A stretch of 64,000 nt of DNA from Maribacter sp. 1_MG-2023 (lineage in GTDB: Bacteria; Bacteroidota; Bacteroidia; Flavobacteriales; Flavobacteriaceae). The notes below the pieces were generated by a model that ran no database searches, was not told where the DNA came from, and saw nothing but the letters and a program-made list of their open reading frames with translations. This document shows positions 6,551 to 61,462 of the stretch, piece after piece. The stretch spans positions 62,001 through 126,000 of the forward strand of contig NZ_JAUOPN010000001.1 of assembly GCF_030547005.1 (NCBI RefSeq), read 5' to 3'. The translations under genes were made by a program, and so were the position numbers. The first letter of the stretch is position 1; each line of letters opens with the position of its first letter.

Positions 6551-8332
6551 GTGAATATTCAAGAGGTACTATCAGATAAAGTAAAAGAAGCGGTTAAATC
6601 TATTTTTGACAAAGAATTGCCAAATGTAGAATTTCAACCTACCCGTAAAGATTTTGAAGGCGATATCACGATTGTGGTTTTTCCGATGTTGCGCGTGGTA
6701 AAGGGCAATCCAGTTCAGATTGGTGAACAAATTGGCGGGTATTTAGAAGAACATGTAGACGCCGTTGCAGGCTTTAATGTGATTAAAGGCTTTTTAAATA
6801 TTGTTATCAATGATGGTTTCTATTTAGATTTTTTCAATTCAATTTCTTCAGTGGAGAATTTCGGATTTGTAAAGGAGTCTGATGATGCCGTAATGGTAGA
6901 ATATTCTTCTCCTAATACCAATAAGCCATTGCACTTAGGTCATATTCGTAATAACTTATTAGGATATTCCGTTGCTGAAATTTTAAAGGCATCAGGTAAA
7001 AAAGTGTACAAGACCCAGATTATTAATGACCGCGGAATCCATATTTGCAAGAGTATGGTGGCTTGGCAGAAATTCGGAAACGGAGAGACGCCTGCTTCTA
7101 CAGGTCTTAAGGGTGATAAACTAGTTGGTAATTATTACGTTGCTTTTGATAAAGCATATAAAGAACAAATAGCAAAATTAGTAGCTGAAGGTACTGACCT
7201 AAAAGTTGCTGAAAAAGAAGCGCCGATTTTATTAGAAGCAAAAGATATGCTTTTAAAATGGGAAGCTGGTGATGCCGAAACAGTAGCACTTTGGAAAACC
7301 ATGAACGGATGGGTGTACAAAGGTTTTGAGGTTACTTACAAGAATTTAGGAGTCGATTTTGATAACCTATACTATGAAAGTGATACCTATCTTTTAGGTA
7401 AAGATGTTGTTGCAGAGGGATTAAAAAAAGGAGTTTTCTTTAAAAAAGAAGATGGAAGTGTTTGGATCGATTTGACCGAAGACGGATTAGATGAGAAAAT
7501 TGTTCTTCGTTCAGATGGTACTGCGGTTTACATGACCCAAGATATTGGTACTGCTATACAACGTGTAAAAGACCACCCAGATGTAAATGGTATGGTGTAC
7601 ACTGTTGGTAACGAACAAGATTATCACTTTAAAGTATTATTCTTAATACTACAAAAACTCGGATTCTCTTGGTCGAATAAATTACACCACCTAAGTTATG
7701 GTATGGTCGATTTACCTAGTGGAAAAATGAAGAGTAGAGAAGGTACTGTTGTTGATGCTGATGATTTAATGGCAGATATGACACGAACTGCCGCTACAAT
7801 TTCTGAAGAATTAGGTAAGCTTGAAGATTATAATGAGGAAGAAAAGCAATCGTTGTATAAGATGATTGGCTTAGGTGCTTTAAAATACTACATATTAAAA
7901 GTAGATCCTAAAAAACGAATCTTATTTGACCCTGAAGAGTCGGTTGATTTTCAAGGGAACACAGGTCCGTTTATACAGTATACTTATGCACGTATTCAGT
8001 CTATCTTAAGAAAGGCAGAAAGCATGGGTATTGATATTTCTAAGGATGCCAAGGTTACGGAATTACACGCAAAAGAAAAGGAGCTGATTAAACAACTTCA
8101 AATCTTCCCAGATATCATTCAATTAGCTGCGGAGAATTATAGTCCGGCATTGATTGCCAATTATACGTATGATTTGGTGAAGGAATTTAATTCGTTCTAT
8201 CAGCAAGTTTCGATACTTGGCGAGTCTGACGATGAGAAGAAAGTATTACGTGTTCAGTTATCTAAGAAAGTAGCTGAGGTTATACAAGATGCATTCAAAT
8301 TATTGGGTGTTGAAGTGCCTGAGCGCATGTAA
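6551..8332 (+). CDS. argS: Arginyl-tRNA synthetase
   Basis: ArgS charges tRNA-Arg with arginine. The 593-residue product has the N-terminal additional domain, the class I HIGH-type motif 'NTNKPLHLGHIRNN' near residues 120-133, a KMSKS-type loop 'GKMKSREGTVVDADDL', and the C-terminal DALR anticodon-binding domain ending in 'FKLLGVEVPERM'. There is no ATG at the N-terminus; a TTG (6548) and a GTG (6551) are adjacent, and the GTG gives the typical flavobacterial start Met-Asn-Ile-Gln. It is apparently monocistronic, with its own -7 box, and converges on the TonB receptor gene only 2 bp away. Confidence 0.97.
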   Translation: MNIQEVLSDKVKEAVKSIFDKELPNVEFQPTRKDFEGDITIVVFPMLRVVKGNPVQIGEQIGGYLEEHVDAVAGFNVIKGFLNIVINDGFYLDFFNSISSVENFGFVKESDDAVMVEYSSPNTNKPLHLGHIRNNLLGYSVAEILKASGKKVYKTQIINDRGIHICKSMVAWQKFGNGETPASTGLKGDKLVGNYYVAFDKAYKEQIAKLVAEGTDLKVAEKEAPILLEAKDMLLKWEAGDAETVALWKTMNGWVYKGFEVTYKNLGVDFDNLYYESDTYLLGKDVVAEGLKKGVFFKKEDGSVWIDLTEDGLDEKIVLRSDGTAVYMTQDIGTAIQRVKDHPDVNGMVYTVGNEQDYHFKVLFLILQKLGFSWSNKLHHLSYGMVDLPSGKMKSREGTVVDADDLMADMTRTAATISEELGKLEDYNEEEKQSLYKMIGLGALKYYILKVDPKKRILFDPEESVDFQGNTGPFIQYTYARIQSILRKAESMGIDISKDAKVTELHAKEKELIKQLQIFPDIIQLAAENYSPALIANYTYDLVKEFNSFYQQVSILGESDDEKKVLRVQLSKKVAEVIQDAFKLLGVEVPERM

Positions 8333-47056: not shown

Positions 47057-47116
47057 TATACGTTTAAGCATATAATATTGTATTTTAGAATAAAATTATA
47101 TTTAATTGCATATAAT
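47057..47116 (+). promoter_or_regulatory. Promoter/operator region of the first hipB
   Basis: A 60-bp AT-rich region before hipB carries two GCATATAAT direct repeats (47068-47076 and 47108-47116, the second overlapping the ATG). It aligns almost base for base with the region 50463-50522 ahead of the second hipB copy. Repeated TATATG/CATATA half-sites would suit HipB binding. Confidence 0.45.
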
Positions 47117-47336
47117 GAAGGAGTTATCCGAATTTGTAAAAGAACGAAGAAAAGAAGTTAATCTAACCCAAGAAGAGTTTGCTGAAAGGGCAGGGGTGGC
47201 ATTAACAGTAGTACGTAAAATAGAACAAGGCAAGACTAATCTTAATCTTGAAAAGGTAGACCAAGTACTGAAAATGTTTGGACACAAATTAATTCCGGTA
47301 AGTTTAAAAGATTTGGAAAGAGATGAGACAAGCTAA
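47115..47336 (+). CDS. hipB: HipB-type HTH antitoxin/repressor, copy 1
   Basis: A 73-residue Xre-family HTH protein: 'FVKERRKEVNLTQEEFAERA' and 'VALTVVRKIEQGKTNLNLEK' form the helix-turn-helix, then 'LKMFGHKLIPVSLKDLERDE'. HipB binds the operator and the kinase toxin. The ATG at 47115 is preferred over a TTG 9 bp upstream. Its 3' end overlaps hipS by 14 bp. It is over 85% identical by eye to the copy at 50521. Confidence 0.92.
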   Translation: MKELSEFVKERRKEVNLTQEEFAERAGVALTVVRKIEQGKTNLNLEKVDQVLKMFGHKLIPVSLKDLERDETS

Positions 47337-47655
47337 AATATTTTATGATGCTATTTATTGTGGTCTATTAATAGAAACTGATGACGGGGAATATACATTT
47401 GCTTATGACGAAGTTTATGTAAACGATTACCCTAATCAATTTATTACCTTTAAAATGCCGGTTAGTAATGAATTATATACGGATAATAGGTTATTTCCAT
47501 TTTTTGAAGGATTGATACCCGAAGGTTGGTTATTAAACATTGCTTCCAATAGTTGGAAAATTAATAGAAATGATCGCATGGGACTATTAATGGCATGTTG
47601 CCAAAATTGTATAGGAGCGGTAAGTGTTGAACCTGTAATACAAGAAAATGAATAG
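47323..47655 (+). CDS. hipS: HipS-like protein (HipA N-terminal subdomain as a separate gene)
   Basis: The 110-residue protein matches the N-terminal subdomain of HipA: 'YCGLLIETDDGEYTFAYDEV', 'YPNQFITFKMPVSNE', 'LFPFFEGLIPEGWLLNIAS', 'GLLMACCQNCIGAVSV'. In HipBST systems this piece is a separate protein that can serve as the antitoxin. Here it overlaps hipB by 14 bp and hipT by 8 bp, so the three are translated as a unit. The assignment to HipS rests on gene order and sequence style. Confidence 0.85.
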   Translation: MRQAKIFYDAIYCGLLIETDDGEYTFAYDEVYVNDYPNQFITFKMPVSNELYTDNRLFPFFEGLIPEGWLLNIASNSWKINRNDRMGLLMACCQNCIGAVSVEPVIQENE

Positions 47656-48580
47656 GTGCCTATACTGCTATAAAGAAATCGATGGAGAAGGTGATTTTCA
47701 TAAATCATGTAGTCTTGAATTTTTTGGTGCCGAAACGCCACCAAAAATAGAATATTCATTAAATCAAATGAGTGAGCTGGCCGAACAAGTGGTAGAACGT
47801 AGTATTGCGGTACCAGGGGTGCAGCCAAAGCTTTCTATGTCCGTTTTAGATGAAACAGGTAAAGAAAGTAGGTTAACCGTTGTTGGCGCCTTAGGTGGTA
47901 ATTATATATTTAAACCACCATCTAAAGATTTTCAAGAAATGCCGGCGAACGAACATTTGACAATGAAGATCGCTAAATTATTAGAAATAGAAGTGGTACC
48001 ACAATCGTTAATACGATTGTCCTCAGGAGAGCTCTCGTATATTACTAAGCGTATAGATAGAGAAGAGGATGGTACCAAGATTCATATGCTGGATATGTTT
48101 CAGATTACTGAAGCTTTTGATAAATACAAAGGTTCAATGGAACGTATTGGGAAGGCTATTACTTCCTATGCTGAAAACACGTTATTGGATAAGCTACGAT
48201 TTTTTGAACTGACAATATTTAGTTATTTAACCGGTAACAACGATATGCATTTGAAAAATTTTTCAATGATAAAAACTTCATATGGTTGGGCTTTATCACC
48301 TGCATATGATTTATTGAATGTTGCTATTTTGAACCCGGATGATGCTGAAGAGATGGCATTGAGTATAGGTGGAAAAAAAAGGAAACTTAAAAAGGACCAT
48401 TTTATAGAATTTGCAATAAACCTTGGCTTGAATAAGATGCAAATTGCTGGTGTCCTTAATCGTTTTAATGGTTCTATAGATGACATTAAGAATTTAATTA
48501 AATCGTCATTCTTGTCTGAGGAAATGCAAGGGTTTTATCTTGAAATTTTCATTGATAGAATAAAGAAAATTACTAAATAA
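47648..48580 (+). CDS. hipT: HipT/HipA-type serine/threonine kinase toxin
   Basis: The 310-residue kinase lacks the N-terminal subdomain, as HipT does. Residues 1-26 add a Cys/His motif (C4-x2-C7 ... H18-x2-C21). 'VVERSIAVPGVQPKLSMS' (near 52-64) is the Gly/Ser loop; the first Ser is retained and the second Ser of the SxS motif is Ala. 'TGNNDMHLKNFS' (Asp199) and 'LSPAYDLLN' (Asp221) correspond to the catalytic and metal-binding Asp of HipA. HipA/HipT kinases inactivate aminoacyl-tRNA synthetases; the target here is unknown. Confidence 0.9.
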   Translation: MNRCLYCYKEIDGEGDFHKSCSLEFFGAETPPKIEYSLNQMSELAEQVVERSIAVPGVQPKLSMSVLDETGKESRLTVVGALGGNYIFKPPSKDFQEMPANEHLTMKIAKLLEIEVVPQSLIRLSSGELSYITKRIDREEDGTKIHMLDMFQITEAFDKYKGSMERIGKAITSYAENTLLDKLRFFELTIFSYLTGNNDMHLKNFSMIKTSYGWALSPAYDLLNVAILNPDDAEEMALSIGGKKRKLKKDHFIEFAINLGLNKMQIAGVLNRFNGSIDDIKNLIKSSFLSEEMQGFYLEIFIDRIKKITK

Positions 48581-50494: not shown

Positions 50495-50520
50495 AGTGAA
50501 ATTATATCTAATTGCATATA

Positions 50521-50742
50521 ATGAAAGAATTAGCTGAATTCGTAAAAGAAAGAAGAAAACGAGTGAATCTTACTCAGGAGGAATTTGCTGAAAGGGCAGG
50601 AGTAGCATTAACTGTTGTTCGTAAAATTGAACAAGGTAAGACAAACCTTAACCTTGCAAGGGTTAATCATGTTTTAGAAATGTTTGGACATACCCTTATT
50701 CCGGTAAGTTTAAAAGATTTGGAAAGAGATGAGACAAGCTAA
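50521..50742 (+). CDS. hipB: HipB-type HTH protein, copy 2
   Basis: A 73-residue Xre-type protein nearly identical to copy 1: 'FVKERRKRVNLTQEEFAERA', 'VALTVVRKIEQGKTNLNLAR', 'LEMFGHTLIPVSLKDLERDE'. Differences are few and conservative, so it may still bind DNA. No intact hipS or hipT follows, so it is an orphan that could repress the intact operon in trans. Confidence 0.9.
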   Translation: MKELAEFVKERRKRVNLTQEEFAERAGVALTVVRKIEQGKTNLNLARVNHVLEMFGHTLIPVSLKDLERDETS

Positions 50743-50807: not shown

Positions 50808-51407
50808 TTATCTCTTCGCGATAAAAGAATCGATTGCCCCCCTAAGATTGTACGAGAATTTTGATGATGAGGGATGTGGAAGAACGAGTAGTGGATAGTC
50901 TTTTTCAAACTTGAAATATGCGAAGGTATTAGACGCTGGGTTACGTTTGCCTGATATATCCTCCTTTCGAATATTACACCACAATCTATCACCCCAAAGA
51001 AAAATTAAGTCTGGGTCAACAGTTTTTACAGCTTTTTTAAAATCAGGATAGCTCAAATCAAAATCCTGATGTGAAGGTGATTGGCGCGGTTTTTTCATTG
51101 GGACTTGTACAAAATTATAGAATGACACACTTTCCCAAAATTTGATTGAATCTTTATTTGATTGTTTAGTGCCGTTTAGCACATTGGAAAATTTTGTAAA
51201 AGTATTCATCCATCTGCCATAATATCCTGAACCTCTTTTATAATTTAAATACTCCTGAAGCACTTGCGCCGTTTTGGAAATACATTTCAATTGAGAAGGT
51301 TCATTAAAGCAACATGCTGGCTTCTTACAATAATGACTTTCACCTAAAACAAGTAATTTTATAGGTGAATTTGAGTAGGTTTCACCTATATAAGGATGGA
51401 ATTTCAT
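50808..51407 (-). CDS. Possible uracil-DNA-glycosylase-fold protein, last gene of the defence operon
   Basis: The 199-residue product has 'IKLLVLGESHYCKKPAC' near the N-terminus (GESHY at 22-26), 'SFYNFVQVPM' (Asn98), 'PDLIFLWGDRLW' (138-) and a late 'LPHPSSSKF' (HPSS at 178-181). The order (beta strand with a catalytic loop, NF segment, hydrophobic strand, HPS loop) recalls the UDG superfamily, but canonical motif A (GQDPY) is replaced by GESHY. It follows the Nmad2-like gene by 30 bp. The fold is inferred; acting on modified DNA bases would fit the neighbours. Confidence 0.55.
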   Translation of the reverse strand: MKFHPYIGETYSNSPIKLLVLGESHYCKKPACCFNEPSQLKCISKTAQVLQEYLNYKRGSGYYGRWMNTFTKFSNVLNGTKQSNKDSIKFWESVSFYNFVQVPMKKPRQSPSHQDFDLSYPDFKKAVKTVDPDLIFLWGDRLWCNIRKEDISGKRNPASNTFAYFKFEKDYPLLVLPHPSSSKFSYNLRGAIDSFIAKR

Positions 51408-51437: not shown

Positions 51438-52067
51438 TTAGCATTTAGAAGAACAGTTCTGTAGATGACGATGTTTAAAATCTAATACAATTTGTGGTTT
51501 TCCATGTAGTTGATTTGGGTCATATGGTGTTTTTTCTAACCAGTCAACAAAATCAAGTTTATAAAGTTCATTTGCATCGGATTTATGTGCCTGACCTTGT
51601 TTAATAATAGGCCATAATCTTTTGGGTAAATCTATCGCATTATCTCCGAAATAATAAAAGTGATTAGATAGTAATACATTTTTACCGTTAAGATCCCTTT
51701 CTCTATTAAGACAATTATGAACGCTATCTCTTAATTTTGGTTCACTTTGCGAGTAATCATAAATTGAATCGCCCACATTTAATCGATAATCGTTGTTATT
51801 AATGTCTGGAACTTTTTTAGGTAAATACTTTAAACAATAATCATCATATTCTTTCATGGTCATTTTATTGGTAACCTTCATAGCATAGACCAATTTATTT
51901 CGATAGCTCTTTCCTCTAACATTTACAGAACCAACACCAGCAATCCAATCACCAATTTTTGCTACGCTTCTTATTTTAGGTTTACAAATAGCAAGAGTAC
52001 AAGTACCCCAATAGGGATTGGGGGCTGCTCCGTCGTCTACTGGAAGACAATAACTAAAGAGTCTCAT
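51438..52067 (-). CDS. Nmad2-like protein (nucleotide modification associated domain 2)
   Basis: The 209-residue protein begins 'RLFSYCLPVDDGAAPNPYWG', then 'TCTLAICKPKIRSVAKIGDW' and 'VYAMKVTNKMTMKEYDDY', which I recognise as the Nmad2 domain, a family named for its neighbourhood with DNA base-modification genes. The C-terminus is Cys-rich ('LQNCSSKC'). Its start overlaps the PD-(D/E)XK-like gene's end by 14 bp, so the two are coupled. Biochemical activity is unknown. Confidence 0.7.
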   Translation of the reverse strand: MRLFSYCLPVDDGAAPNPYWGTCTLAICKPKIRSVAKIGDWIAGVGSVNVRGKSYRNKLVYAMKVTNKMTMKEYDDYCLKYLPKKVPDINNNDYRLNVGDSIYDYSQSEPKLRDSVHNCLNRERDLNGKNVLLSNHFYYFGDNAIDLPKRLWPIIKQGQAHKSDANELYKLDFVDWLEKTPYDPNQLHGKPQIVLDFKHRHLQNCSSKC

Positions 52068-52524
52068 TGGTTAAGTTGGCTTGTGGCAATTGTTCCGATT
52101 TTTTTAATTTATTATTCAAGATTCCTAAATTTACAGCGGTAACTGTGGTAGATATATTTCGATAAAACTTCCTGTTACCTTCTTTCAAAAATTGGTTGAT
52201 ATACTTCCCTGGTCCGTTATAAATAACCTCCAACGTACCATTTGGCTCTATATGAACAGCTATATAGTGTTCTAAATCTATATTATAAGGGTAACTGAAG
52301 TAATAACCCATGCTTGCTTTTATTTGAACTTCTATTTTACTCTGTCTATGAATACCATCATATACAGGTGCATTTTTACCATAAAGTTCAATGTCAAACA
52401 TTTCGCTAACCAAAGCTTCACCTATGTCACCTACCAATCTACCGTCTAAAGAAAAATCTAGCTTTCCTTCAAATTGCTTCTTTAATGAAGCGGTAATGTC
52501 TAATAATTGTTGGATTTCTTTCAT
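52054..52524 (-). CDS. DUF6998/PD-(D/E)XK-like nuclease-fold protein
   Basis: The 156-residue product shows a likely restriction-endonuclease-like core: Glu36 in 'LVGDIGEALVSEMF', Asp56 in 'APVYDGIHRQ', and 'IEVQIKASMGYYF' where Gln67-x-Lys69 replaces the (D/E)xK pair. This E-D-QxK arrangement is a known variant of the fold. The family resembles DUF6998. It could bind or cut DNA with the neighbouring HNH protein. It lies 11 bp after the HNH gene and overlaps the Nmad2 gene. Confidence 0.65.
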   Translation of the reverse strand: MKEIQQLLDITASLKKQFEGKLDFSLDGRLVGDIGEALVSEMFDIELYGKNAPVYDGIHRQSKIEVQIKASMGYYFSYPYNIDLEHYIAVHIEPNGTLEVIYNGPGKYINQFLKEGNRKFYRNISTTVTAVNLGILNNKLKKSEQLPQANLTNETL

Positions 52525-52535
52525 TTAAAATAAAG

Positions 52536-53534
52536 TTAAACCCTTTTTGAAGTTCTTATGAGTTCATCAACTATATCTTTCTTGAACTTACTGAAGGGTC
52601 TTTTATGATAGTTGGATTCATCTATTTCGATACCGAAAATAAGGCGGTATTTATCTGATTTGGAAACTTCCAAATTCTCAAAAGTCTTATTTAAAAGAGT
52701 ATCTAGATAGTTATCGGAATATTTATAACGTAAGTCAATTAAATCTTGAAGTTCTTTCTTTGAGTGTCCCTTATATAATAATTTTGTTTCTAAAATATCA
52801 ATAGTGTTTTGGGCTTTTAAACCAGAAGGGTCATATTTTTTACATATTACTTCATATTCAGAAGGAGATTTCGCGAGGTAACTAAATCGAAACGATTTTG
52901 AAATTCCAGTATCAATATAAGGATGTAAATGGTCTTCTAAGTTTAAGGTTGCCGTAGATTTTATAGAGCTGTTACATATGCTGCATGAAGGAATTAAATT
53001 ATAAAATGACAGTGCAAGCAAAGGATGTTTGCTCTTTGTAAACCAATGATCAAACTGAGGTACCATTCCCTTTTCACCATTAGTTTTCCTCATGACCAAA
53101 ATATATTGTCTGTTACAGTAAGTGCAGGTATGAATGTCTAACCATTGGGCTAATTGATAATTGAGATTTTTATAGAAGTAGTTTTCATACCCGGCTTTGA
53201 CAAAAAGCTTTTTACACTCTTCTTTAAAATCATTTTCATCATATCCTCTTCCTGTGAACATTCTCTTAATTACCTCTTCAATCAGAAGCAGTTCGTCAGG
53301 TTTTGAGGCTATAATATATTCTATATTACGCTGGGTAAAGCAGCCGACAAAATCGGGATTTAGATCCGATTTAATCTTTAATGGTTTCGAACATGTTTTA
53401 CACAATTCATTACCACAATTATGACCGTGAGGATTAGCGACAGAATGTTTTCCCCAAAGTTTAATTTTTAACCAGCATGTAATTTCATTACTGTAATTTT
53501 GTAGCGCTTCTTTTTGCTCTCCTAGGTAAATCAT
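52536..53534 (-). CDS. HNH endonuclease, PtuB-like partner of the ATPase
   Basis: The 332-residue protein has an N-terminal Cys/His cluster (H36-G-H38-x-C40 ... C45-x2-C48) and a C-terminal-half HNH nuclease: C137-x2-C140 ('CTYCNRQY'), D162-H163 ('PQFDHWFTKSKHPLLALSF'), N179 and C184-x2-C187 ('CSICNSSIKS'). Its start overlaps the ATPase stop by 4 bp (ATGA). A RecF-like ATPase coupled to an HNH nuclease is the design of Septu (PtuA-PtuB) and of the retron effectors. DNA or tRNA cleavage during phage attack is therefore a reasonable inference. Confidence 0.8.
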   Translation of the reverse strand: MIYLGEQKEALQNYSNEITCWLKIKLWGKHSVANPHGHNCGNELCKTCSKPLKIKSDLNPDFVGCFTQRNIEYIIASKPDELLLIEEVIKRMFTGRGYDENDFKEECKKLFVKAGYENYFYKNLNYQLAQWLDIHTCTYCNRQYILVMRKTNGEKGMVPQFDHWFTKSKHPLLALSFYNLIPSCSICNSSIKSTATLNLEDHLHPYIDTGISKSFRFSYLAKSPSEYEVICKKYDPSGLKAQNTIDILETKLLYKGHSKKELQDLIDLRYKYSDNYLDTLLNKTFENLEVSKSDKYRLIFGIEIDESNYHKRPFSKFKKDIVDELIRTSKRV

Positions 53535-55471
53535 TGCTCGCCAAAATTTATATCAAGACCATATCGTTGTGCCATTTCCATTAAATGCTGTTTTTTACTT
53601 TCTTTATCCGTTTCATCCCTGAAGACTTCATAGTACATGTCTTCCAACTTAGTACTCAGAATGGGTTCATCTACAATCCTGATTAAATCTTTATGATATT
53701 CTTTCTCATCTAAATTTCGATTTTCATTCCTTAGCCAATTGATTGTTTCTTGAATTTTATCTTTTGCAAAATCTCCCATTAGAGAATCTTGTAAAAAGAA
53801 AGAATCCGCTAATAAATCAGTGAGATTGGCTCCAAAGGAGTGCCTCGGTTTATGAAGGTCTGAATCAGATATTATGTAACTAGAAGAATTATCTTGAGAC
53901 TTATTCACATAAACTATATTGTTCGAAGGTAAGTCACTCAGTGACAATGGATCATGTGTGGTAAAAATGATTTGTACTTTCGCATCTATTTTTTTGAATA
54001 GTTTTGTAGAAAACTCAATTAACGTTTTCACAAAATATCTTTTCCAAATAGGATGAAAACCCAAATCCGCCTCATCCAACAATAAAAGATAGTGCTTGTA
54101 CTTTCTTTCTGTTGGCATTTCTGAAATTACATTGGTATCAAAATACTCATGGATTCTACTGAACAGGTTCAACATGGCAGTTTCTCCTGAACTTAAATTT
54201 CTGGATGACGGTTCCAAATTGATATAGTTTGGAATTTCGTTTACCGTCCTATATTCAATGTTATCATTTGAATCACTTACCGCATAATATTTACTTAAAC
54301 TGCTAATTAATTTGCGTTCTAACTCATACAATTCGTCTACTTTTTCGGTCTCCAGAAATATTGACTTTAAACTCCAATCAAAGTAAATCGACCCTCTTTG
54401 ATTACTATCAAATTCAATATTATCAATATAATTAAAAAGAAAATCCAATAAACTTAAAATTTCCTTATCCGGTAAATTCTTTTGTCCTCCTTTGGAGTAA
54501 TAATAGTCTTCAAACCAAATTTTATATAATTTAAATGGATTGTTGGCTTCTATAAGTTTTTCATCATACACATCAATTTTATCAAAATGCCCCTCTTTAA
54601 GATACGAGTTTTCCATTTCCATTAACTTTATGAGAAGACAGAAAATATCCATCAAAATGTAATTCTTCATTAAATTTTTCTGAAGGATGAATTGATCTTT
54701 ATCGGTATCCCTTTTGGAATTTCTAATTTGATAGGACTCTGTTTTTATTTTTTTATATAAACCTTTTAAAAATGGTCGAAAATCATTGGGCGTATTATCA
54801 AAAAAAACTTCGTATTCGTCAGCATCGATTCTATATCTGGTAAATGTGATACGGTGCAAATTATCATCGGGAAAATCAAATATTTCCTTAATTGGCTTAG
54901 CTAATTCCGAAACTTTTAAATTCCTTATCCTTCGGTAATTCGCTCGCTTGATTACCTCTTTCGGTAATACGAATCCAGATGGCGGCGATAAATAGGATAA
55001 AGATTCTAAATCCTTACTTAAAATATTATCAAAACTTAAATCAACTCCGCTTAAAGCTGGTTTAAAATCAAGAAAAGGACTATAATAAATCGTATTGATA
55101 TCAACTTCGATATTTTTGAAGGAAAAAGGGATAGCAAGCTTTTTATTTATTCTCATAAAGTTATGAAAGATGGCTGTTTCTCCATCTTCAAAAATTATAA
55201 CTTGATTACCACTGTTTCTATCAATAGCTTCAACTATTTCATACATCAAAGAAGTTTTTCCTGCACCATTAGACCCAACTATAGCTGAAACATTAAGTAA
55301 TGTTTTTGATTCATCAAAAAAACTTTCTAAATATTTAGGGTTTCGCTCTCGGGTTATATTTATAGTCTTTGGATCTTCTTCTAATTTGTATATATATTTT
55401 CCACCAAAATTTAATGTAAAAGGTGTTTCAAATAAATGATAGTCAAATATGTAAATAGCGGCTAGAGTCAT
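53531..55471 (-). CDS. RecF/OLD-like AAA ATPase, PtuA-like
   Basis: The 646-residue protein is an ABC/SMC-like AAA_15-type ATPase. Walker A is 'GSNGAGKTS' (66-74), signature 'NLSSGETAMLNLF' (425-437), Walker B 'YLLLLDEADLGFHP' (461-474) and the H-loop 'IIFTTHDPLSL' (His506). The C-terminus contains 'HSFGANLTDLLADSFFLQDS', as in PtuA-type proteins; no TOPRIM domain is seen, so it is not a complete OLD nuclease. The paired HNH gene overlaps by 4 bp. It starts 11 bp after hsdS, so it lies in the restriction operon. Confidence 0.85.
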   Translation of the reverse strand: MTLAAIYIFDYHLFETPFTLNFGGKYIYKLEEDPKTINITRERNPKYLESFFDESKTLLNVSAIVGSNGAGKTSLMYEIVEAIDRNSGNQVIIFEDGETAIFHNFMRINKKLAIPFSFKNIEVDINTIYYSPFLDFKPALSGVDLSFDNILSKDLESLSYLSPPSGFVLPKEVIKRANYRRIRNLKVSELAKPIKEIFDFPDDNLHRITFTRYRIDADEYEVFFDNTPNDFRPFLKGLYKKIKTESYQIRNSKRDTDKDQFILQKNLMKNYILMDIFCLLIKLMEMENSYLKEGHFDKIDVYDEKLIEANNPFKLYKIWFEDYYYSKGGQKNLPDKEILSLLDFLFNYIDNIEFDSNQRGSIYFDWSLKSIFLETEKVDELYELERKLISSLSKYYAVSDSNDNIEYRTVNEIPNYINLEPSSRNLSSGETAMLNLFSRIHEYFDTNVISEMPTERKYKHYLLLLDEADLGFHPIWKRYFVKTLIEFSTKLFKKIDAKVQIIFTTHDPLSLSDLPSNNIVYVNKSQDNSSSYIISDSDLHKPRHSFGANLTDLLADSFFLQDSLMGDFAKDKIQETINWLRNENRNLDEKEYHKDLIRIVDEPILSTKLEDMYYEVFRDETDKESKKQHLMEMAQRYGLDINFGEQ

Positions 55472-55482
55472 GTTAATTGAAT

Positions 55483-56769
55483 TCAGATTTTTTCTTTTCG
55501 CAACTCCTCTATCTCCCTCAACAAATCTTTGGCATCACCATCTGTAGGTAATTGCTCTACTAGCTCCCCTTTAAAAGCTTTATGTAAAATGGCTTGGGGT
55601 AGCGAATCAATTTTATTTTTTAAAATTTTATATTTTTTGTTTATCTCATTTGCAGTTGCCAAAAGAAAATCAACACGTTGTACAATTTCTAATTGTTCCG
55701 CTTTTTGGGGAAGATTTATTTGTAAATTTTGAGTTTGTGTTTTTGTTAAAGCTTGCCTTGTGACACCGTAATTTTCATTAAATATGTAGTTTTGAATTTG
55801 TGAAGAGGATAAGTACATATTTACATATTTTGGTGAAATACCTTCATTCAATCTAATTATATTTACATGTTGATTAACTCTTCCTCCAACAATATAATCC
55901 TCTGCTATACAAACTCTACCGATTGAAGCCCCAGTGATATTTAATAAAATATCATTTTTATGTATTTCAACATTTTTAAGCTTTTCAGCTTGTTTTTTAT
56001 CTAGAAAAGCTAGTCCATCCGATTTAATTCCATTAAAATGAATATTCATAGAACGAACTAGGGGAATACCTGTCTTCTTATAATTTTTAGAACCACCTTT
56101 TGGAGTCGAACCACTACCTATTTTATTGGTGATATCTTTTAGAAATACCAAATTCCATTTTTCCAACTCCTTCCCCTCACGCCACTCCTCCGTCAACTTA
56201 CCGGTAACCGCTTGGGTGAGCACCTGCTGTCGAAAATCTTTTAAGAGTTGGGGTATCCGCTCCAAACTTTTTTGCATGGTTGACACCTGAGCCATTAAAA
56301 TATCTACTTTAGCAACAATACGGTCCTGTTCGGGGCGGGGTGGTAAAGGAACTTGAACTTCTTTAAGAATTTTAAAATGCCTACTATAGCCTAAATCTGG
56401 TATTTTTAATGATTTTAAGTAATAATAATAGAATTTCTCATTAAGAATTGACGAAGGCTTTAAAATTTTCGTACCATCTGCACCAACTGCAAAAGTGAAA
56501 TCTATGTATTTAATATGTCTAGTGTGATCCCCAAAAATAATTACTGGAGTATCTCCTTTATAAATGGACTTTTCATCATCAATATATCCAGCAATTAAGG
56601 TGTCACCTTGATCAACTACTGGATATTTCCCTTGCAATGCCAATCCCTTAGTTTTGTGTTTAACGTACTTGGGTGCTTTTTTCAAGGCTTCCTCAAACCC
56701 AATTTTAATCCAGTTATGATATAAAGTTGGTTGTACTTTAATAAAATCAATATCGCCTCTACTTGCCAT
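55483..56769 (-). CDS. hsdS: Type I restriction-modification specificity subunit HsdS
   Basis: The 428-residue subunit has two target-recognition domains separated by conserved helices ('VPLPPRPEQDRIVAKVDILM', 'FRQQVLTQAVTGKLTEEWR'), and a second helix set at the end ('LPQAILHKAFKGELVEQLP'). The second TRD starts 'WNLVFLKDITNKIGSGSTPK'. HsdS sets the DNA sequence read by the M and R subunits. Its ATG overlaps the hsdM stop by one base (TAATG). Recognition sequence cannot be deduced. Confidence 0.93.
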   Translation of the reverse strand: MASRGDIDFIKVQPTLYHNWIKIGFEEALKKAPKYVKHKTKGLALQGKYPVVDQGDTLIAGYIDDEKSIYKGDTPVIIFGDHTRHIKYIDFTFAVGADGTKILKPSSILNEKFYYYYLKSLKIPDLGYSRHFKILKEVQVPLPPRPEQDRIVAKVDILMAQVSTMQKSLERIPQLLKDFRQQVLTQAVTGKLTEEWREGKELEKWNLVFLKDITNKIGSGSTPKGGSKNYKKTGIPLVRSMNIHFNGIKSDGLAFLDKKQAEKLKNVEIHKNDILLNITGASIGRVCIAEDYIVGGRVNQHVNIIRLNEGISPKYVNMYLSSSQIQNYIFNENYGVTRQALTKTQTQNLQINLPQKAEQLEIVQRVDFLLATANEINKKYKILKNKIDSLPQAILHKAFKGELVEQLPTDGDAKDLLREIEELRKEKI

Positions 56770-58229
56770 TAACCTAGTTCTTTTATCATCGCCTGCAACT
56801 GCTGGGTAATGGTTTCCAATTCTGTCAAAGCCTCTTTGGCTATATCAATAGGTTCTCCTAAATCCTCGCCATTACTAACACTATCATCAGCAATTAAACC
56901 TAAATCCAAGGAGTCGTTTTTCTTGGTTATGGTTTCTCGATCTATATATTGCCAACGTTCATTTTTTATCTTTTTTCTAGCGGTTTCATCAATAACGCTA
57001 TCAAAATCGTTCGCTAACTTCTCAGGTTCCACACCACCGGTATAGGCTTCTATAAATTCATTAAATGCCGCTCTAGTAAATGGGGTGCGTTTACCATAAT
57101 TAGGTACGTTGGTTCGCATATCAAAATACCAGACACCTTTTGTATTTTCAGTTTCGGTAGTGCCCCTGGTAAAGAAAAGTACATTGGTTTTTACTCCTGC
57201 AGCATAGAAAATACCTGTTGGTAAGCGTAAGATGGTATGCAGATTGCATTTATCCATTAAATCACGCCTAATCTTTTGCCCATCACCATCCTCAAACAAG
57301 ACATTATCGGGCAATACTACAGCTGCACGTGCTTTACCATCTTTTTTTAAACTTCTATAAATATGCTGTAAAAAGTTAAGCTGCTTGTTACTGGTTGGGT
57401 AGGTAAAATCATCACGGGTTGGGCGCTCACCTCCCTTTTTAGTCCCAAACGGTGGGTTAGCCAATACGCCATCATAGCCTTTAAGTTCTTTTCCCATTTC
57501 CGTTAGGGTATCACCTAAAATAATTTGGCTTTCCATACCGTGCAATCTCGCATTCATTAAAGCCAAACGGTGGGCATCACCCACCAGCTCAACACCACTA
57601 AATGCTTTTTCTACTTGAAACTTTCGGTCTTTTTCGTCCAGTTCAAAATAGTTATCATGTTTGGTGCGTAAGTATTCATCCGCAGAAATCATAAATCCAA
57701 AAGTTCCTGCTGCAGGGTCGTTCCAACGTTCTCCCAATTTGGGTGCCATCAATTCCACCATCACATTAATCAATGGTCTTGGTGTAAAATACTGCCCAGC
57801 ACCACTTTTCTTTTCACCTGCATTTTTTTCCAATAGGCTTTCATAAATATCGCCCATGACATCACGGTCGGTTTCCTCATACCAATCCAAGTCATCTATG
57901 GCTTGCACCAACGTATTAAAGTTTACCGGTTTTCTAAGACTTGTAGAGGCATTAGCATAAATCTCCTTAATACCTGCACTGGTAGTCTCATTACTCACTT
58001 CTGCCAAGAAACTACGGTAACGCTGAAAAGATTCTGCATTATCGGTCTCCTCCACAAAAGAACGCCAACGGTATTGCTCAGGAATATGTTCTTCAAAACC
58101 CTTTACTTCACTCAGCTTCAAGAATAGAATGTACGTAAGCTCATTTAAATATTGGTGATAGGTAACCCCATCATCCCGTAATACGTTACAAAGGTTCCAA
58201 AGCTTATTGGCTATTTCATCTGCACTCAT
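56769..58229 (-). CDS. hsdM: Type I restriction-modification methyltransferase HsdM
   Basis: The 486-residue adenine-N6 methyltransferase carries the HsdM N-terminal helical domain ('LWNLCNVLRDDGVTYHQYLN'), SAM motif I as D171-PAAGTFGF, and motif IV N258-PPF. 'GAGQYFTPRPLINVM' is the classical HsdM segment. It pairs with HsdS to modify the host DNA. It begins 20 bp after hsdR. Length and motifs are complete, so it should be active. Confidence 0.97.
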   Translation of the reverse strand: MSADEIANKLWNLCNVLRDDGVTYHQYLNELTYILFLKLSEVKGFEEHIPEQYRWRSFVEETDNAESFQRYRSFLAEVSNETTSAGIKEIYANASTSLRKPVNFNTLVQAIDDLDWYEETDRDVMGDIYESLLEKNAGEKKSGAGQYFTPRPLINVMVELMAPKLGERWNDPAAGTFGFMISADEYLRTKHDNYFELDEKDRKFQVEKAFSGVELVGDAHRLALMNARLHGMESQIILGDTLTEMGKELKGYDGVLANPPFGTKKGGERPTRDDFTYPTSNKQLNFLQHIYRSLKKDGKARAAVVLPDNVLFEDGDGQKIRRDLMDKCNLHTILRLPTGIFYAAGVKTNVLFFTRGTTETENTKGVWYFDMRTNVPNYGKRTPFTRAAFNEFIEAYTGGVEPEKLANDFDSVIDETARKKIKNERWQYIDRETITKKNDSLDLGLIADDSVSNGEDLGEPIDIAKEALTELETITQQLQAMIKELG

Positions 58230-58249: not shown

Positions 58250-61200
58250 TTAGGCAACGTAAAGATTAGCATTAATGGTCTCTAACACATCATCTAATTG
58301 TTGCTCAAATTGTTTGTTAATGCGGTTATAACCGCCTTCGCCCTTAAATGGCTCTTTGTCCAAATCTTCTTTGCTAAGAACTGTTTCTGCCAATAGCTGC
58401 TTTTGAAAACGGTCTAGCCATTTTTGCTGAATCTTGTTCCAGGGTTTCATACCTTTTACTTTTTCAAAAGCTCTATGAACACGTTCTTCATGCCCTACCA
58501 AATCTACATCTAAGGTAAGTGTACGAATATAGGCAATAATGTCTGCAGCAATATCTTCGTTTTTAGCATCGTGCCAAGCGGCATTCAAGGTTTTTGCATT
58601 GAACCCTTCTTGGTCTAACAGAAGGCGGAGCTCTTTAAGTGACTTTCTATCAAGGGTACTAGGTTTAGACACAATCACTTTTAAAGCGGCTATTTTATTC
58701 TGATTCTCTAATAAGAATTTTTTAAAATTTTCTATGTAGTCTTCTGGCTTTTTGGCTTTCCCATAATCGCGTTCTGTACCTAAGTATTCATCTTTATGGT
58801 CTGATAATAATTGATGCTTTGGTTTGTAGACTTTAGTGTCAAGATAATTCCACAGCCCTTTAAATTCTTTAATAATCGCTTTTACTTCTTGTGCACTAGC
58901 TTCTTTAATTGCTTGTATGACTTCTTTAGGTTCTTTACCGCCAGCCATATAAATAAACTCTTCTAAGCTATTTTCTTCAATCTTACGGCGTTTGCGTTGT
59001 AATTTTGCAATAAGCTGTTCTCCTTGAGATTTGGCGCGCTCATCGGACTCGATAGCATCTAATTCATTCACCAATTGCGTAAATGTTGTAGATGGATTAG
59101 AAACCGGTTTCATTTGCGTGTAATCCTGTAAGGCTTCATGCACTCTTACAGCATCGAATATTTTGAAATCTTCTTTACCTATTTCTTCACATAGACGGGT
59201 AGCACGACCTATCATCTGTTCATACAAAATTCTAGAACCTACCCGGCGCATAAATACCAAGTTGCAAATTTTAGGAACATCTATGCCCGTGGTCAATAAG
59301 TCTACCGTTACCGCAATGTTCGGAAATTTCTCGTTCTTAAATTCCTTGGTCAGTTGCTCAGGGTCATACGCTGCCCCTGTTATTTTCCTGATAGCATTTT
59401 GGGGCACTTCAAGTCCTATTTTTTCGAACTCTTCATAAAGCATCTCCACGATCATATCTGCATGTGAATCACGAACGGAAAAAATCAAGGTTTTTTCATC
59501 GCTATCCGGATCTAGATGTTGCACCAGTTCTTTTAAAACGACCCTATTAAAATCAGGAGTGATGACCAGCTTGTTGAACTGCTCAATTTCTACCAATAGG
59601 TCATCTTCCAATTCTGCAAGTTCTTCAATACTATTCGTCTCTGGATTAAATACTTTAGGGCGTTCACCCTTTTTCCAAAGTATGCCTTCTTCGCTCAATC
59701 GTGTTTTTATACGATACGGAGGTTCATGGTCCGACAAATACCCATCAATTACAGCCTGGCGATACGAATACGAATAAACCGGTTTGCCAAAAATTTCAGT
59801 GGTATGTAATGCAGGTGTTGCAGTTAAACCTATTATATAGGCATTGAAATATTCTATAACTTTCTTGTACTGGCTAACATAATCATCTTGATTTTTGAAC
59901 TCCAAATCTTCTTCATCGAGCTCTTTATCTAGATTGTAACCACGGTGGGCTTCATCAATGATAATGCAATCATAAGTGTCAATAGGCAGCTCGTTATCAC
60001 CATAAAATAGCCGTTTTACCATACTTTGTACTGTAGCAAAGTGCAAACGTGTTTCCGAATCAGGAATCAGCGTTTTCACGTATTCCATTTTATAGACATC
60101 TGCAAAGGTGTTAATGCGTTCTATCTTAACATCTTGATAGCTTCCAAAAGCCTGTTGTGCTAAAAGTTTTCTATCCGTTAAAAATAATATTCGCTTAAAA
60201 CGATTGGCTTTAATCAATCGGTAAGAAAGTCCAATAACGGTTCTGGTTTTTCCGGTACCCGTTGCCATGACCAAAAGAGAACGATTTTCATCAAAGTTTG
60301 TTCGAATGTTCTTTTCAACACTTTGTATCGCATCTATTTGATAATCTCGAAGGCTTAAACCGTTTTTATCTTGTAAATAATCGTAATCGCTTTGTTCTAA
60401 CTTTTGATTCTCTGCTTCTATATCACGTTCGTAAAGTTCAACCAAGCCAGTAGGTGAAAACCAACCTCGTATTGGATAAGCTCTATTTCTTTCTTTACGT
60501 ATATCTAAAAACCAAATACCGCTTTTTGTTTTTATTTGCTCTAGAAATTCACGCCCATTTGTTGAAAATAAAAAAGGTGCTTTATAATCTTGCCATTCTC
60601 CTAAGATTTCAAAATTGTCATCTACAGAAATACGTTTTGCATAAATATCGGACTGTCTTAAGTCAGTTGAAATATCACTGGCGTATTTCTTAGCTTCTAC
60701 AATACCGTATAGTTTTGTTCCCACAAATAAAGCATAGTCCGCCCATTTGCCATCACAAGGCCATTCGGCAATTGCGATATTTCTACCTTTTTGAGGAAGG
60801 GTTTTATTTTTCTTATAATTAAGTTCAAGGGTGTCACATTCCCAACCAGCTTCAATTAACTTTGGGTCTATAAGCGTTAGTCTTGTATCTTCCTCGCTTA
60901 AGTCAAGATTCTTGGCTCGGGCATCACTTCGTTGTTTACGAGCCGTAACTTCTTCTTTATTTTTATTAAGCTCAGCTATTTTATTTTTATAATCGGTAAA
61001 CTCTTTAGAAAGCTTTTCTAATTTCTCACTGAGTTCATCAGATGCGGTATCTTCCTTCTCAGGTAGGGTATAAGTATTTATTTCTATATAATCTTGCTCA
61101 TAGGTTTCATAAAACCATTTTGCTAATTGAAAGCACTTTTTTAGAATGAAATGAGCTTGCGGAAAAGTGCCGGTACCATCGTGGCTGGCTTGATTTCCAG

Positions 61201-61462
61201 ATTTACGTACCGTATGTAGAATGCTTGTAATAATATCTGGTGCAATATTTAGCGAAGACAACCTATAAATACGGTCATTCTGAGTCCCCATAAAGTCGCC
61301 TAATTCTTCAAATTCCCAAACTAGTTGACTAAGTTTCTCAGAAAACAACCTAGACTTAGAAAGAGATGAACTAGGGTCTATATAAATTAATTTTTCTGAA
61401 AGTTCGCTTATGGCGAAAAGGCTAGGATATTGCTGTTCTAAAAAACTGAAATTCGTATTCAT
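58250..61462 (-). CDS. hsdR: Type I restriction enzyme subunit HsdR
   Basis: The 1070-residue subunit has an N-terminal DUF4145-like helical domain (1-120), a coiled-coil (about 139-178), the HSDR_N nuclease (Asp242 in 'WADYALFVG', E256-x-K258 in 'GIVEAKKY'), a superfamily 2 motor with Walker A 'MATGTGKTRTVI' (399-410) and DEAH box (503-506), and an EcoEI-type C-terminal domain. It translocates and cuts unmodified DNA. It is the first gene of the minus-strand operon; its upstream gap has no obvious -7 box. Confidence 0.96.
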   Translation of the reverse strand: MNTNFSFLEQQYPSLFAISELSEKLIYIDPSSSLSKSRLFSEKLSQLVWEFEELGDFMGTQNDRIYRLSSLNIAPDIITSILHTVRKSGNQASHDGTGTFPQAHFILKKCFQLAKWFYETYEQDYIEINTYTLPEKEDTASDELSEKLEKLSKEFTDYKNKIAELNKNKEEVTARKQRSDARAKNLDLSEEDTRLTLIDPKLIEAGWECDTLELNYKKNKTLPQKGRNIAIAEWPCDGKWADYALFVGTKLYGIVEAKKYASDISTDLRQSDIYAKRISVDDNFEILGEWQDYKAPFLFSTNGREFLEQIKTKSGIWFLDIRKERNRAYPIRGWFSPTGLVELYERDIEAENQKLEQSDYDYLQDKNGLSLRDYQIDAIQSVEKNIRTNFDENRSLLVMATGTGKTRTVIGLSYRLIKANRFKRILFLTDRKLLAQQAFGSYQDVKIERINTFADVYKMEYVKTLIPDSETRLHFATVQSMVKRLFYGDNELPIDTYDCIIIDEAHRGYNLDKELDEEDLEFKNQDDYVSQYKKVIEYFNAYIIGLTATPALHTTEIFGKPVYSYSYRQAVIDGYLSDHEPPYRIKTRLSEEGILWKKGERPKVFNPETNSIEELAELEDDLLVEIEQFNKLVITPDFNRVVLKELVQHLDPDSDEKTLIFSVRDSHADMIVEMLYEEFEKIGLEVPQNAIRKITGAAYDPEQLTKEFKNEKFPNIAVTVDLLTTGIDVPKICNLVFMRRVGSRILYEQMIGRATRLCEEIGKEDFKIFDAVRVHEALQDYTQMKPVSNPSTTFTQLVNELDAIESDERAKSQGEQLIAKLQRKRRKIEENSLEEFIYMAGGKEPKEVIQAIKEASAQEVKAIIKEFKGLWNYLDTKVYKPKHQLLSDHKDEYLGTERDYGKAKKPEDYIENFKKFLLENQNKIAALKVIVSKPSTLDRKSLKELRLLLDQEGFNAKTLNAAWHDAKNEDIAADIIAYIRTLTLDVDLVGHEERVHRAFEKVKGMKPWNKIQQKWLDRFQKQLLAETVLSKEDLDKEPFKGEGGYNRINKQFEQQLDDVLETINANLYVA

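Follow-up and report, generated by a model that had tools for sequence, protein, structure and literature searches.

Gene content and packing of the defence operon

On the minus strand of the window, that is the whole stretch of 64,000 nucleotides of Maribacter DNA that was analysed, eight genes follow one another in the order hsdR-hsdM-hsdS-M62A-M62B-DUF6998-Nmad2-UDG-like. The run opens with a type I restriction-modification (RM) system that is complete, hsdR, hsdM and hsdS all being recognised by PADLOC, and the two genes that concern us here, DUF6998 and Nmad2, are the sixth and the seventh. The features, from upstream to downstream, are the following:

58250-61462, minus strand: HsdR, type I restriction subunit (PADLOC REase_I, E=3.9e-207)
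56769-58229, minus strand: HsdM, type I methyltransferase (PADLOC MTase_I, E=1.4e-198)
55483-56769, minus strand: HsdS, type I specificity subunit (PADLOC Specificity_I, E=1.3e-78)
53531-55471, minus strand: PDC-M62A, AAA ATPase, Septu/PtuA-like (PADLOC PDC-M62A, E=6e-62)
52536-53534, minus strand: PDC-M62B, HNH-type, Septu-like (PADLOC PDC-M62B, E=6.6e-51)
52054-52524, minus strand: DUF6998 (PF22522), BisI-like PD-QXK nuclease, 156 aa (Pfam E=6.9e-31)
52054-52067, minus strand: overlap of 14 bp between the 3' end of DUF6998 and the 5' end of Nmad2
51438-52067, minus strand: Nmad2 (PF18753), member of a non-TIR clade, possible PUA-like reader, 209 aa (Pfam E=1.7e-57)
50808-51407, minus strand: UDG-like small protein with GESHY ... 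HPSS motifs, family assigned by motif only

The junctions along the run measure 20, -1, 11, -4, 11, -14 and 30 bp, the last one separating the UDG-like gene from the end of Nmad2, and the eight genes are probably one operon. An earlier note on this DNA had described the two reading frames and their 14-bp overlap, and both genes were found on the minus strand as listed above. The ATG of Nmad2 at 52067 has no room to move upstream, an in-frame stop lying at 52073, and it is also backed by the agreement of the N-terminus with the homologues. The same note read the overlap as translational coupling of this pair: the overlap is there, but it gives the two genes no special tie, because tight junctions, from -14 to +30 bp, are found along the whole run. 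The overlap was thus discarded as a special feature of the pair, the neighbouring junctions being tight as well; nor does an overlap imply that the two products are made in a fixed ratio, as had been expected.

M62A and M62B, the two genes just upstream of DUF6998, are related to PtuA and PtuB of Septu, but DUF6998 and Nmad2 are not components of that system; this assignment was rejected since neither gene turned up at L147 or L148, two other loci with M62. The first of these loci belongs to a genome of the same genus (G1084:C1:1286000-1299000), in which hsdR-hsdM-hsdS-M62A-M62B is followed by genes for a McrB-like protein and McrC, occupying the slot held in the window by DUF6998, Nmad2 and the UDG-like gene; this comparison is a single instance, and the two M62A proteins are 36% identical. 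The slot can therefore hold a known modification-dependent system.

The last gene of the run owes the name UDG-like only to the resemblance of its GESHY and HPSS motifs, read from the sequence and from an alignment with homologues on plasmids; it had no Pfam or PDB match, and a profile search of the PDB returned chance matches only. Its relatives are encoded on many plasmids of Escherichia, Salmonella and Klebsiella, very small ones included. Beside the 3' end of the operon lies an orphan HipB-like HTH gene (50512-50742), nearly identical to a second one (47106-47336) that heads an apparent hipBST set (47106-48580).

Kinship of DUF6998 with the BisI nucleases

Pfam lists DUF6998 as a family without a known function. 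The earlier note had recognised an E-D-QxK protein in it and, in fact, E36, D56 and Q67-I-K69 are invariant in an alignment of eight sequences (A6), whose invariant core consists of DGRLVGDIGE, which holds E36, of D56 and of VQIKA, which holds Q67 and K69; one member from outside this alignment (L016) differs within the core motif. Searches of PDB sequences with single proteins gave no match. A profile of DUF6998 built from a second alignment (A2), which takes in two weak members (L019 and L020) bridging the DUF6998 and BisI families, matched Eco15I with E=7.1e-11 and NhoI with E=4.4e-4, while the A6 profile matched Eco15I with E=1.4e-3; among all solved structures these two enzymes alone gave meaningful profile scores. 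DUF6998 aligns with Eco15I over 40 residues without gaps. The AlphaFold2 model (pLDDT 83) points in the same direction: its ten best Foldseek matches in the PDB are Eco15I and NhoI chains (E from 4.7e-4, probability 0.98-1.00), and then come PvuII and DpnI, PvuII being the next match of BisI itself as well. A TM of about 0.45 indicates a distant relation.

Eco15I and NhoI are both BisI-type enzymes. Members of this family require 5mC or 5hmC; they cut GCNGC carrying several of these modified bases by means of a D-QXK site, and mutation of active-site residues abolishes the activity of Eco15I (PMC11347163). The solved relatives of this type are dimers and cut methylated or hydroxymethylated double-stranded DNA. 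The profile and fold matches bear out the nuclease half of the earlier proposal and sharpen it to a BisI-like enzyme: DUF6998 is a relative of the modification-dependent nucleases BisI, Eco15I and NhoI and most likely works like a BisI nuclease, presumably with the same dependence on modification. It shares with that family the fold, the E-D-QIK site and about 120 alignable residues, but it forms a separate Pfam family marked by the motifs DGRLVGDIGE and NGPG, its gene lies within a type I RM operon beside that of Nmad2, and its cleavage is predicted. The profile alignments to Eco15I and NhoI stop before the position of the (H/R)(V/I/T/M) methyl-binding motif near the C-terminus.

DUF6998 is also found without Nmad2. 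Two type I RM operons contain it in this form, one together with an AriA-like gene (L123) and one with Gabija genes (L125); on plasmids it often stands alone. In three Flavobacteriaceae (L123, L124 and L125) it is adjoined by a gene for a PDDEXK_4 (PDC-S26) type nuclease, assigned in the last two by sequence similarity; in L123 and L125 this gene, like DUF6998, is part of the RM operon. Phage head-gene cassettes hold the gene too (L025, L026, L027, L028 and L031), directly after a minor-head-like gene in L025 and L026, which suggests that phages too carry this nuclease. One more locus (L126, G510:C1, about 7814-8029, minus strand) keeps a truncated remnant close to the C-terminal half of the window protein, again without Nmad2.

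Overlapping genes for a nuclease and a small partner might recall a toxin and its antidote, with Nmad2 restraining DUF6998. We regard such an arrangement as very improbable: the nuclease gene comes first, DUF6998 is found in phages, on plasmids and in further RM operons where Nmad2 is absent, and Nmad2 likewise occurs without DUF6998. Kinship with BisI offers a testable activity for this family, the cutting of modified phage DNA, which would explain why DUF6998 is present in operons of type I RM, on plasmids and in phages.

Fold and gene partners of Nmad2

Nmad2 stands for nucleotide modification associated domain 2. The window protein scores 194.6 bits against PF18753, for a curated cut-off of 26.1, and its AlphaFold2 model is confident, with a pLDDT of 93.8. 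Foldseek found no significant match for this model in the PDB (best E 0.14); the 50 best matches are nevertheless mostly members of the PUA superfamily (THYN1 with 5mC DNA, ASCH, YTH, EVE and the N-terminal domain of McrB), all with E of at least 0.14, and ASCH and EVE proteins are also among the viral matches. Comparison of Nmad2 with EVE and ASCH by hhalign gave no signal, in a setting of single template sequences where EVE failed to match ASCH too. For Nmad2 a PUA-like fold, as found in readers of modified bases, is no more than suggested. Modification-dependent restriction enzymes often consist of a PUA-superfamily reader fused to a nuclease (PMC7897488). Most likely Nmad2 reads modified bases or nucleotides; the idea that the partner of the nuclease senses or handles modified nucleotides, already present in the earlier note, remains plausible, and the PUA matches, at E of 0.14 or above, give it slight backing.

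The relatives of Nmad2 were collected by scanning genome contigs of about 85,000 species, from which the best 80 of 169 relatives were kept, and a tree of 95 proteins was built. In 69 of these 95 the gene directly upstream of Nmad2, usually within about 16 bp, is a ThsB-like TIR gene (PF08937), in loci that span at least 12 phyla (L002-L005, L023 and L048-L111, e.g. L051:9465-10651), some of them near MazG_C or SLATT genes. TIR-Nmad2 is a strongly conserved pair and has the look of a separate defence system. The TIR gene thereby gives a domain of unknown function a partner, kept across these phyla. An Nmad3 gene is found downstream of Nmad2 in three members of the tree.

The window Nmad2 belongs to a clade of 19 members (support 100/97) with a different environment. 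As in the TIR pairs, the partner of Nmad2 in the window is directly upstream and overlapping or adjacent; the clade, however, has no TIR gene (0 of 18 loci), the place of the TIR gene being taken by DUF6998 in the window, and it is often found among restriction genes. Type I RM genes lie near 6 of the 19 Nmad2 genes of the clade and near 2 of the 66 others, nearly all TIR-linked (Fisher p = 0.001), in a strict count that leaves out L035, whose hsdR and hsdS are on a cut stretch. The direct neighbours of Nmad2 within the clade include a GIY-YIG/DUF4357 gene (L032, where DUF4357 is the Pfam label and GIY-YIG was read from the sequence), HsdR (L034), HNH (L035), Mrr (L038) and a DRT2 reverse transcriptase (L149); the mrr gene starts 10 bp after Nmad2.

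Two further readings arise from these partners. According to the first, Nmad2 would act on, or sense, a free modified nucleotide or a second messenger and so switch a neighbouring effector, a TIR protein in most species and the BisI-like nuclease here. The widespread TIR linkage and the further MazG_C, SLATT and Nmad3 neighbours agree with it, but the window clade lacks the TIR partner and is often accompanied by DNA-restriction genes, and no recognised messenger-making gene is present in the window operon, so that we consider this switch improbable. The second, which we hold to be somewhat unlikely, is broader: Nmad2 would be an immune sensor of general use, responding to modified nucleotides or bases and adjacent in the genome to exchangeable effectors (ThsB-like TIR proteins in most phyla; BisI-like, Mrr and GIY-YIG nucleases in the window clade), and DUF6998-Nmad2 would be a new split modification-dependent restriction system. 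Sensing of a modified nucleotide by Nmad2 would matter for the forms linked to TIR genes as well as for those linked to nucleases.

Recurrence of the pair and its possible role

The DUF6998-Nmad2 pair is rare. Among the 95 members of the tree only two have DUF6998 beside Nmad2, the one in the window and one from an uncultured Aquimarina (L033). There the gene order is unchanged, the two genes overlap by 4 bp and stand behind a type I RM system, and a type III-A retron is found in place of the M62 genes; identity between the two loci is 64% for DUF6998 and 58% for Nmad2. Because the proteins are close and the genes ordered and overlapping in the same way despite the change from M62 to retron context, the pair appears, on comparison of these loci, to be one cassette moved between contexts, a view to be taken with caution given two instances. 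The Nmad2 proteins of L032 and L034, the nearest relatives, group with that of L033, yet DUF6998 is absent from both whole genomes; the pair was therefore either gained twice or partly lost.

The genome samples gave a similar picture: Nmad2 was found in 14 and DUF6998 in 5 of 395 Bacteroidota genomes, and in 3 and 7, respectively, of 397 genomes of the same family, and the only genome with both was, in each sample, that of the window. A widely conserved two-gene system was rejected on these counts. The idea of a dedicated two-protein system is weakly supported: the pair recurs once, in L033 and again beside type I RM genes, the sampled genomes add no further case, and the number of coupled pairs free of RM or Septu neighbours, which the earlier note had proposed to count, is zero. 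A tblastn search of a phage collection found no relatives of DUF6998 or Nmad2. DUF6998 and Nmad2 each come from known families. Neither their combination nor a DUF6998-BisI or Nmad2-TIR link was found in the part of the literature searched, and no relevant paper there mentions Nmad2 or DUF6998 by name. DefensePredictor counts an NMAD domain among its predicted defence domains, those without validation, and has NMAD in the legend of its Fig. 3 as well, in passages that leave the Nmad family unspecified (PMC13092281).

The main rival to the reading that we prefer treats DUF6998 and Nmad2 as accessory genes independent of each other, which are stacked among the cargo of a type I RM operon and work each alone or with the RM core. 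This is a real possibility, though short of an even chance. Every junction in the run is tight and the overlap can be seen as operon compaction; the two genes mostly occur apart in the samples above; Nmad2 has many other neighbours, and PDDEXK_4 adjoins DUF6998 instead in the three Flavobacteriaceae. Random stacking, however, would not lead one to expect the ordered, overlapping pair to recur in L033, in another defence context and with both proteins close.

We prefer to see in DUF6998-Nmad2 two genes that add modification-dependent restriction to a type I RM system, and tentatively give this reading a probability of about 0.4. As an accessory module, the pair would occupy the 3' end of a defence operon anchored by type I RM; DUF6998, a BisI-type nuclease with a PD-QXK site, would do the cutting and Nmad2 would read modified bases or nucleotides, the two acting jointly as a split, type IV-like module. 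Unmodified DNA would be attacked by the type I RM system and the M62 pair, and phage DNA with modified bases that block HsdR would be attacked by DUF6998-Nmad2. The analysis shows the domain identities, the conservation of the active site, the operon packing and the recurrence in one other species; dependence on modification, reading by Nmad2 and joint action of the two proteins are inferred. We favour the proposal because the solved structures that DUF6998 matches, by profile and by fold, are those of the BisI family and E-D-QIK is kept, because fusions of reader and nuclease are common among modification-dependent enzymes (PMC7897488), because the same ordered pair stands behind type I RM in L033, because McrBC fills the slot in G1084 and Mrr adjoins Nmad2 in L038, because type I RM is commoner near the window clade than in the TIR-linked set, and because DUF6998 sits in type I RM operons also without Nmad2 (L123, L125). 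Against it stand the presence of the pair in two genomes only, the lack of DUF6998 in L032 and L034 and its frequent occurrence alone on plasmids or in phage cassettes; moreover, the PUA-like match of Nmad2 is not significant, the methyl-pocket motif of BisI could not be placed, and the McrBC case is single, with M62A at 36%.

In its proposed logic, a reader of modified DNA plus a nuclease, the pair resembles McrBC and the EVE- or SRA-nuclease type IV systems, but it has no AAA GTPase, and reader and nuclease would be separate small proteins, the fold of the reader being no more than suggested. Genes embedded in type I RM operons, as in the PDC set of PADLOC, are likewise accessory and reused in unrelated defence systems. 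The nuclease-protease pairs (PMC12799240), which are reused in the same way, set a precedent for accessory gene pairs that move between unrelated defence systems; the partner in the window is Nmad2 and not a protease, and two instances only are at hand.

Elsewhere in the genome of the window, an EVE-domain protein with an apparent C-terminal HNH region (L158, G000:C20:15773-16228) may be a modification-dependent nuclease.
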